A stretch of 51,892 nt of DNA from Bacteroidales bacterium. GTDB taxonomy: Bacteria > Bacteroidota > Bacteroidia > Bacteroidales > P3. The notes beneath the pieces were generated by a model. The model ran no database searches and had not been told where the DNA came from. It was given only the letters and a program-made list of their open reading frames with translations. Shown piece after piece: positions 25,319 through 26,637 of this stretch (the first letter of the stretch is position 1; every line of letters begins with the position of its first letter). Made by a program: the position numbers and the translations under genes. Where the stretch lies: positions 1 through 51,892 of the forward strand of contig JAEENM010000006.1 of NCBI GenBank assembly GCA_016283745.1. The letters are read 5' to 3'.

Positions 25319-25390
25319 CAGTTTTTATTATTGTGTCGCCATAAAAACCGAATTTCGTCCGAAAAATTGTGTGGAGAGGAAAATTTAATT

Positions 25391-25440
25391 CGGATTTCGG
25401 ATTTCGGATTTCGGAATTAGGATTTAGGAATTAGGAATTA
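25391..25440. repeat. Low-complexity GGATTTC/GGAATTA tandem tract
   Basis: Repeats of 7 bp (GGATTTC x3) run into GGAATTA and GGATTTA variants. This is intergenic spacer inside 25319-25813 with no coding signal; similar words follow the ABC-F gene. Confidence 0.75.
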
Positions 25441-25477
25441 TATTCATTCTACAAACGTTGGCACCAATTTTGAACAA

Positions 25478-25504
25478 TGGTAGTTGAGCTTGTCAAAACT
25501 ACCG
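25478..25504. repeat. Small palindrome GGTAGTT...AACTACC
   Basis: GGTAGTT-GAGCTTGTCAA-AACTACC forms a 7-bp stem. The loop word GAGCTTGTC resembles the arms of the larger palindrome at 41283-41348. Confidence 0.55.
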
Positions 25505-25516
25505 CTAAAAAAAATT

Positions 25517-25546
25517 TTGCCAATCCAAATAATTATCGTATTTTTG
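25517..25546 (+). promoter_or_regulatory. Promoter for the structured RNA / FISUMP-like lipoprotein
   Basis: TTG at 25517-25519 and TATTTTTG at 25539-25546 form a -33/-7 pair. The expected transcription start near 25553 coincides with the beginning of the folded region. Confidence 0.7.
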
Positions 25547-25552
25547 CACACA

Positions 25553-25740
25553 GATTTCATAGAAGAAATCACGAAGCGTTATGCTCGTTCTTGTTTGTAG
25601 AAACTTGAGAACCTTCTATAATGGGCAAGAGAGTGTAATTGTTCACGCTTATAGCGTGGACTTTATGTCATTCTTTCCCAAAAGGCGTTCTCAAGGCCTC
25701 TACAAGAAGAAATGGTATATAGCGCCACGCTTCTTTTATT
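25553..25740 (+). ncRNA. Candidate structured leader or small RNA
   Basis: Nested complementary segments can be read by eye: GAAGCGT (25573-25579) with ACGCTTC (25727-25733); TTGTAGA (25595-25601) with TCTACAA (25699-25705); CTTGAGAAC (25604-25612) with GTTCTCAAG (25687-25695), nine perfect pairs; GGG plus AAGA (25623-25630) with TCTT plus CCC (25672-25679); and apical hairpin CACGCT-TAT-AGCGTG (25644-25658). Together they give a long rod of about 160 nt, starting just after a promoter and ending about 80 bases before the lipoprotein gene. It may be a cis-acting leader or an independent RNA (6S-like rods have a comparable shape). A further hairpin GGCGC...GCGCC lies near 25760-25792. No known Rfam family is claimed. 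Confidence 0.55.
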
Positions 25741-25813
25741 GTGTTTTTTGATGCTTTGTTGGCGCTGCATTGCAAACTAAAAGTTGCGCCCGACACGTAT
25801 TAAGGGATGAAAA

Positions 25814-26356
25814 ATGAAAAAGTTACTCTTTTTAAGCATAATCTGCCTGACGGTATTGGCAATTGCAAGTTGCGACAAAGACAGTACAGAAACAAGCAGC
25901 ACAGATGGGACGGACATAATACAAGAAGGATATGTTGATCTCGGTTTGCCCAGTGGAACGAAGTGGAAAGCTACCAATGAGACAAATCCCAATGATGAAA
26001 ACAATTTATATAGATATAATGAGGCAAAGGAAAAATATGGTTCTGGACTTCCAACAAAACAACAACTTGAAGAACTGAAAGACAATTGCCAATGGATATG
26101 GAATGATACAAGAAAAGGTTGTAAAGTGGTTGGACCTAATGGCAAATCAATTTTTTTGCCATTAGCGAAATACGACTATCACTATTGCGATGGCAACACA
26201 GATATTTCCTGGGAGGGCTTCACATGGTTATGGTCGTCCACACCTGTCGATTCAGACTCGGTCTATATTTGGTACCTATACTTCAATTCGGATAGAGTGA
26301 ATATAGCCTACTGGGATGCTTTATCTTTGTTAGCCGTGCGCCTTGTCCAAAATTGA
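25814..26356 (+). CDS. FISUMP-like predicted lipoprotein
   Basis: A 180-residue secreted lipoprotein: signal sequence MKKLLFLSIICLTVLAIASC with lipobox Cys20, then an acidic Ser/Thr/Asp linker. GYVDLGLPSGTKWKATNE and the later LPTKQQLEELKDNCQWIW and WEGFTWLWSST...AVRLVQN are typical of the Fibrobacter-succinogenes-major-paralogue (FISUMP)/DUF1566-like family of Bacteroidota surface proteins, whose function is unknown. Its promoter is about 260 bases upstream, separated by the folded RNA, and two hairpin terminators follow. The coding sequence is AT-rich compared with flanking operons, suggesting an accessory gene. Confidence 0.82.
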   Translation: MKKLLFLSIICLTVLAIASCDKDSTETSSTDGTDIIQEGYVDLGLPSGTKWKATNETNPNDENNLYRYNEAKEKYGSGLPTKQQLEELKDNCQWIWNDTRKGCKVVGPNGKSIFLPLAKYDYHYCDGNTDISWEGFTWLWSSTPVDSDSVYIWYLYFNSDRVNIAYWDALSLLAVRLVQN

Positions 26357-26368
26357 GGGGAGGGTAAT

Positions 26369-26433
26369 GGCTTTTAGAAAAAAGCCTTTTACGAAACAAA
26401 ACAGAGGTGCGGTTCGCCGAGCCTCTGTTTTTT
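26369..26433 (+). terminator. Tandem hairpin terminators
   Basis: GGCTTTT-AGAA-AAAAGCC followed by TTTT (26369-26390), then ACAGAGG...CCTCTGT followed by TTTTTT (26401-26433). Both end the lipoprotein transcription unit. Confidence 0.8.
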
Positions 26434-26520
26434 AGTTGAAGGTTGAAAGTTGAAATTTAATTTACAATGAACAATGAACAATGTACAATGTACAATTCAC
26501 CCGATCATTACCTTTGTCCT

Positions 26521-26561
26521 CAGACTTTAGACCTCAGACCTTAGACCTCAGACCTTAGACC
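26521..26561. repeat. 14-bp tandem tract CTCAGACCTTAGAC
   Basis: About three copies of CTCAGACCTTAGAC lie in the 26357-26727 spacer, next to ACAATGAACAATGTACAATG words. Apart from the terminators and the gldF promoter this spacer holds nothing else recognisable. Confidence 0.8.
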
Positions 26562-26637
26562 AAACCAAATTCTCCCAATCCACAAAACGCTGTTCACTTT
26601 TCACGAATCACCGGACGCAATTCACAAAAAAAAATCG

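Follow-up and report, generated by a model that had tools for sequence, protein, structure and literature searches.

A covarying rod-and-pseudoknot RNA in gene leaders of Bacteroidia

The window, meaning the whole stretch of 51,892 nucleotides analysed here, carries a long RNA rod that belongs to a covarying RNA family absent from Rfam 15. Most genomes of one Bacteroidales family contain it, as do many others across the class Bacteroidia, a major bacterial group in gut and soil. Members of the RNA family stand consistently upstream of same-strand open reading frames (ORFs), and nearly all of them can be joined by a pseudoknot to a hairpin further downstream. The genes behind these RNAs would together form a regulon whose products are lipoproteins, secreted proteins and SusC-like receptors, for the most part without a known function. 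The family also gives a concrete hypothesis for why the guide of a sigma factor–dCas12f system points upstream of such genes. The parts of the unit in the window are as follows, with the basis for each in brackets; R1 is the covariance model introduced below.

25516–25546, + strand: promoter, −33 TTTG and −7 TAnnTTTG, the latter being TATTTTTG at 25539–25546 (sequence reading)
25553–25570, + strand: 5′ hairpin GATTTC-loop-GAAATC, where the transcript is predicted to start (fold)
25570–25736, + strand: rod RNA, with P1 GAAGCGU/ACGCUUC, a conserved internal loop AA/ACC and helices P2–P5 (fold, z = −7.4; R1, 145.7 bits; covariation)
25720–25726, + strand: 3′ linker of the rod, UAGCGCC, one half of the pseudoknot (complementary to the hairpin 2 loop; covaries in 93 rods)
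25727–25750, + strand: 3′ strand of P1, then an imperfect U-run, ACGCUUCUUUUAUUGUGUUUUUUG (sequence)
25754–25777, + strand: hairpin 2, with loop GGCGCUG at 25761–25767, the other half of the pseudoknot (pseudoknot covariation analysis)
25783–25806, + strand: 24-nt box GTTGCGCCCGACACGTATTAAGGG, a small CCC..GGG hairpin with a conserved loop, just 5′ of the start codon (46 GTDB stretches; stem covariation; box-to-ATG spacing)
25814–26356, + strand: putatively regulated ORF, a 180-residue lipoprotein, weakly FISUMP/Lcl_C-like (ORF; Pfam, NCBIfam)

Architecture of the unit in the window

The segment 25553–25740 folds into one long rod spanning 25570–25736, with a minimum free energy of −69.6 kcal/mol compared with −39.9 ± 4.0 kcal/mol for its dinucleotide shuffles (z = −7.4), none of 200 shuffles being equally stable. 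A long rod had been claimed at 25573–25733 in the first-pass annotation, and the nine-base-pair helix CTTGAGAAC/GTTCTCAAG and the apical hairpin GTTCACGC..GCGTGGAC described there are both found in the computed fold. The apex is a conserved hairpin containing AGCGUGGRCU. The small 5′ hairpin that precedes the rod also occurs in relatives, with altered stem length and sequence. Just 5′ of this hairpin and of the rod base lie TTTG, at about 25516–25519, and TATTTTTG, which together we take to be a Bacteroidetes-type promoter, matching the earlier placement of a promoter at the rod base; read in this way, the sequence predicts a transcript start near 25550.

The ATG of the lipoprotein gene, at 25814, lies 78 nt past the end of the model match at 25736, in agreement with the spacing of about 80 bases given before. 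Its description as a FISUMP-type lipoprotein fares less well in the FISUMP part, for which Pfam returns Lcl_C at E = 0.0046, below the cut-off; NCBIfam recognizes a lipoprotein N terminus only, also below the cut-off. Two parts of the unit, hairpin 2 (about 25754–25777) and the conserved box (25783–25806), had been missed. Short degenerate repeats (GGATTTCGGATTTCGG.., AACAATGAACAATGTACAATG.., TTAGACCTCAGACC..) occur at 25390–25440 and 26440–26560, on both sides of the rod and ORF.

Covariation and spread of the RNA family

Diverged copies of the rod, at 73% and 70% identity, are present elsewhere in the host genome. Several early 40-nt matches proved to be general promoter sequence only. The first alignment, made with plain MAFFT, comprised 23 homologues, for which RNAalifold predicts 50 pairs, 29 of them with compensatory double changes. 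This alignment holds 149 double-change cells, compared with 44.2 ± 6.6 when shuffled and 29–55 when slid. The rod thus has a conserved secondary structure backed by covariation, and the absence of compensatory changes in homologues, named in the earlier note among the outcomes that would speak against the fold, was not what we found.

Covariance model R1, built from the 23 homologues, scores the rod in the window at 145.7 bits. It matches in 128 of the 149 genomes of the host's family, with 1–18 copies each, in 90 of 295 genomes of the order (62 of 184 genera) and, outside the order, in some further Bacteroidia genomes. The E-values are rough, having been obtained with a short calibration, and most scores are far above the limits used. 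Double changes number 847 against 219 in the control for 85 distinct Bacteroidales-level rods, and 165 against 52 for rods of other orders, both counts leaning towards the model because their alignments were fitted to R1. Among the helices of the rod, the apical stem varies least. The family is known so far only from Bacteroidia, the group searched.

A pseudoknot with a downstream hairpin

In nearly all rods, the 7–8 nt that precede the 3′ strand of P1 can pair with a hairpin loop 15–40 nt downstream. In the window, UAGCGCC (25720–25726) pairs with GGCGCUG (25761–25767), and elsewhere linkers such as CAGUGCC, CAGUUCC and CAGCACC are accompanied by the loops GGCACUG, GGAACUG and GGUGCUG, respectively. 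Across 93 rods, the mean linker–loop pairing score is 14.7, compared with 11.7 ± 0.27 when linkers are exchanged between rods, the highest of 200 exchanges reaching 12.4. The partner of the linker lies beyond the U-run, and the structure therefore belongs to a read-through transcript. The box was considered as an alternative partner in place of hairpin 2 and rejected, as GGCAC loops are incompatible with the GCGCC of the box.

Leader position and downstream genes

Position was assessed on 95 distinct rods, the better-scoring ones, by taking as the ORF the longest from an ATG 15–180 nt downstream. A same-strand ORF of at least 50 amino acids follows 90 of the 95, with its ATG 21–177 nt downstream; the distance is 21–95 nt in 89 of these and 177 nt in one. 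TAnnTTTG occurs no more than 75 nt upstream of 78 of the 95. In other orders, the rod may stand 226–376 nt from the ORF, and stronger U-runs (GCTTTTTT) follow it. Among the readings offered before, that of a regulatory leader is thus supported, both by covarying homologues and by the same-strand position before ORFs.

The downstream ORFs usually encode a lipoprotein, secreted protein or membrane protein, and by a crude measure a hydrophobic N-terminal segment is present in 74 of 88 of them as opposed to 32 of 84 neighbouring ORFs (Fisher P = 4 × 10−10). They are otherwise largely unrelated, with 50 Pfam families among 82 proteins and none in more than three. A further proposal, that of a leader shared by paralogous genes, is therefore right about the sharing, with several copies per genome, and too narrow about the paralogy. 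As the genes after rods share no known pathway, they suggest no ligand.

A hairpin box before the start codon

The box stands before ORFs both with and without a rod. Among GTDB genomes, its exact 20-nt core turned up in 46 stretches; almost all carry the label Bacteroidales or other Bacteroidia, and one belongs to a metagenome-assembled genome (MAG) labelled Lachnospiraceae. No copy was found in viral contigs. A model of the box matches 15 of 198 genomes of the order. The CCC/GGG stem changes to CTC/GAG, CAC/GTG or TCC/GGA, giving six double-change cells where 0.3 are expected, a count reached in none of 500 shuffles. Of the 62 boxes followed by an ORF, 38 have their TTG exactly 30 nt from the ATG. 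A coding sequence is ruled out by stops in frame and by changes of frame, and the natural reading is that a protein or RNA would bind the box at the start codon. Because rods and boxes each occur without the other, they may be separate devices. A SAM-II riboswitch lies near one box-bearing gene (L040:1533–1591, − strand).

Comparison with known RNAs

An Rfam scan of the window gives no match at the gathering threshold, and relaxing the limit to E = 10 for region 25400–25900 yields matches at chance level only, with no 6S RNA among them. Scanned against Rfam, 32 homologous loci contain nothing but an unrelated SAM-II riboswitch. The structured RNA motifs Bacteroidales-1 (RF01693), Bacteroid-trp (RF01692) and Flavo-1 (RF01705), known from Bacteroidetes (PMC2864571), have no match in the window or in the homologues tested.

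The rod resembles 6S RNA (RF00013; 6S-Flavo, RF01685) in being a long rod of approximately 170–180 nt that has an internal loop at its centre and a promoter to itself. It differs in being multicopy (1–18 per genome), in lying nearly always near an ORF, in forming a pseudoknot with a downstream hairpin and in matching no 6S model. It is not a discrete gene in single or few copies, and by the features tested it is not 6S RNA; the earlier suggestion of an independent, 6S-like RNA is not supported, given its copy number, leader position and lack of an Rfam 6S match. A 6S-Flavo search of relatives has no bearing here, since it matched in no genome. Orphan riboswitches and other cis-regulatory leaders are similar in having a conserved fold and a pseudoknot in mRNA leaders, with several copies per genome before unrelated targets; they differ in that their aptamers are compact and multi-helical, whereas this RNA is a long rod with no known ligand and no Rfam match. 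We rate the rod as a structured leader that stands apart from Rfam families and joins a rod to a pseudoknot, an unusual design. An unnamed computational candidate corresponding to it may already exist, as the comparison with candidate-RNA lists outside Rfam was partial.

A sigma factor–dCas12f guide matching the rod

In two genomes from other families of Bacteroidia (G542 and G534), the rod heads an operon encoding a sigma-70-type factor and a Cas12f-like protein, which in G542 matches the ‘Nuclease-deactivated Cas12f’ of PDB 9n9c with E = 1 × 10−194. A conserved guide-RNA scaffold ending in TATACAAC directly follows dCas12f, and in G542 the segment in guide position after it is GCGTGGGCTCTCTTATTTTG. 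Both rods of this genome contain GCGTGGGCTCACTTATTGTT, a 17/20 match to the segment. The match is weaker in G534, at 14/20, with 10–11 of the first 12 bases. In both loci, the 16-mers that best match the rod in the 400 nt behind dCas12f fall right after TATACAAC (scaffold and guide-position segment at L252:3127–3260, and in L251 downstream of 1750 on the minus strand). Searching with the guide-like pattern finds further rods, all of them R1 matches, namely one before a SusC-like ORF in G542 and three in G534. The guide RNA thus appears, as judged from sequence, to be aimed at the apical segment of the rod in these two genomes, and the combination of a rod at the head of the operon with a guide that matches the rod apex suggests autoregulation.

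Likeness to the sigma–dCas12f group of PDB 9n9c consists in the operon headed by a rod and in the match between the guide-position segment and rods, of which one precedes a SusC-like gene. The difference is that the rod is an apparent target and not a guide RNA, a role ruled out by the separate scaffold after dCas12f, and that most rod-bearing genomes tested are without Cas12f. A third dCas12f genome (G519) carries the sigma–dCas12f pair with a different downstream sequence; its operon has no rod, and no guide match to the rod of this genome was found. Searches for Cas12f found none in the host genome or in 25 of the 26 rod-bearing Bacteroidales genomes tested, so Bacteroidales rods must work without it.

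Sigma–dCas12f complexes initiate at a set distance from their target, a few tens of bases downstream of it. Measured from the rod sites, such a start would fall near the U-run, beyond the rod. We put forward tentatively, and with clearly less confidence than the leader function itself, that an ancient Bacteroidia leader gates surface-protein genes by default and that sigma–dCas12f guides evolved against its most conserved segment, with one guide switching on every rod-controlled gene by starts beyond the rod.

Proposed mechanism and alternatives

The RNA family, the covariation of its pseudoknot, the leader position, the box hairpin and the guide–rod match together provide the direct basis for a model. 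We consider it probable that the rod is a cis-acting structured 5′ leader, in which rod and pseudoknot decide the expression of the following ORF, with an attenuator-like gate as the likeliest form. Transcription would start at the rod base and the rod would fold, its 3′ linker forming the pseudoknot with hairpin 2, and the two together would determine the expression of the next ORF, whose product is usually exported or located in a membrane. With P1 closed on the rod and the U-run following, polymerase may stop there and leave a short rod RNA; alternatively, if a sensed signal changes the state of the rod or pseudoknot, it may read on into the ORF. In box-bearing genes, the small hairpin before the ATG would add a translational operator, and in the two genomes with a matching guide, sigma–dCas12f starts a few tens of bases downstream would bypass the rod. 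Such a gated leader fits the promoter position, the U-run, the downstream pseudoknot partner and the leader position. Against P1 as a terminator, the U-run of Bacteroidales rods is imperfect, and a simple terminator scan calls the apical hairpin only. Both the leader gate and the guide–rod pairing are directly testable.

The same promoter and U-run, together with a central internal loop inside a long rod, would also suit a small RNA of its own, whether 6S-like or not, which would terminate at the U-run and work in trans, with the ORF no more than a neighbour. Rods of other orders fit this reading in having strong U-runs and, in some cases, more than 200 nt between rod and ORF. We think it unlikely: of 95 Bacteroidales rods, 90 have an ORF behind them, almost always no more than 95 nt away; a genome may hold up to 18 copies; no Rfam 6S model matches; and hairpin 2, with which the linker pairs, is located past the U-run. 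The guide-position segments of G542 and G534, the rods that their pattern finds elsewhere in these genomes and the low variability of the apical stem could instead point to a device acting mainly as DNA, on which regulators, RNA-guided or other, would land by recognizing apical AGCGTGGRCT, the RNA fold being secondary. This is improbable, as covariation in all helices and in the pseudoknot needs a role at the RNA level and Cas12f is missing from the host and from nearly all rod-bearing Bacteroidales genomes tested.

The unit has been gained, lost or exchanged, as shown by three comparisons. A sibling genome (G003) that is about 90% identical on both sides is without window positions 25374–26626; another (G002) shares the right flank but has a different lipoprotein-type ORF at the site, with no R1 match in that region; and two host contigs (L101, 5366–5839; L102, 3566–4039) have a flank of 474 bp in common at 93.7% identity and differ in their rods and ORFs. 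The shared flank may represent either a locus that was duplicated or alleles of different strains in the MAG. Presence, absence and allele replacement at the same site, read from sequence, suggest at most that the unit may be mobile at present. A mobile cassette, in which recombination moves promoter–rod–box units between genes and the fold serves mobility by attC-like single-strand recognition, would account for the empty site in the sibling, the different ORF in the other and the contrasting contigs. We nevertheless hold it to be very unlikely: no integrase, repeat ends or target duplication was noticed, searches of phage and plasmid records gave no rod, and the promoter is conserved at the rod base. 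The possibility, raised in the first-pass annotation, that the rod would match only decayed insertion-sequence ends did not materialize, and an insertion-sequence reading is not supported.

Recurring neighbours of the rod

A protein family with a signal peptide followed by DVTKFLGIPVDG recurs after rods in several genera (L122, L152, L160, L162, L163 and L168), the two members checked having no NCBIfam match. In L247, L248 and L249, the stretch between the rod and a SusC-like ORF holds a second conserved block (ATGGCCCTC..GAGCAGAGGACC), about 180 nt past the rod. Approximately 250–300 nt upstream of the rod, a divergent small gene recurs at SusC and sigma–dCas12f loci (L252:523–852, L257:3381–3740 and upstream of the rods in L231, L233 and L249), and one of its products resembles a Cro/C1-type helix-turn-helix protein, below the Pfam cut-off.
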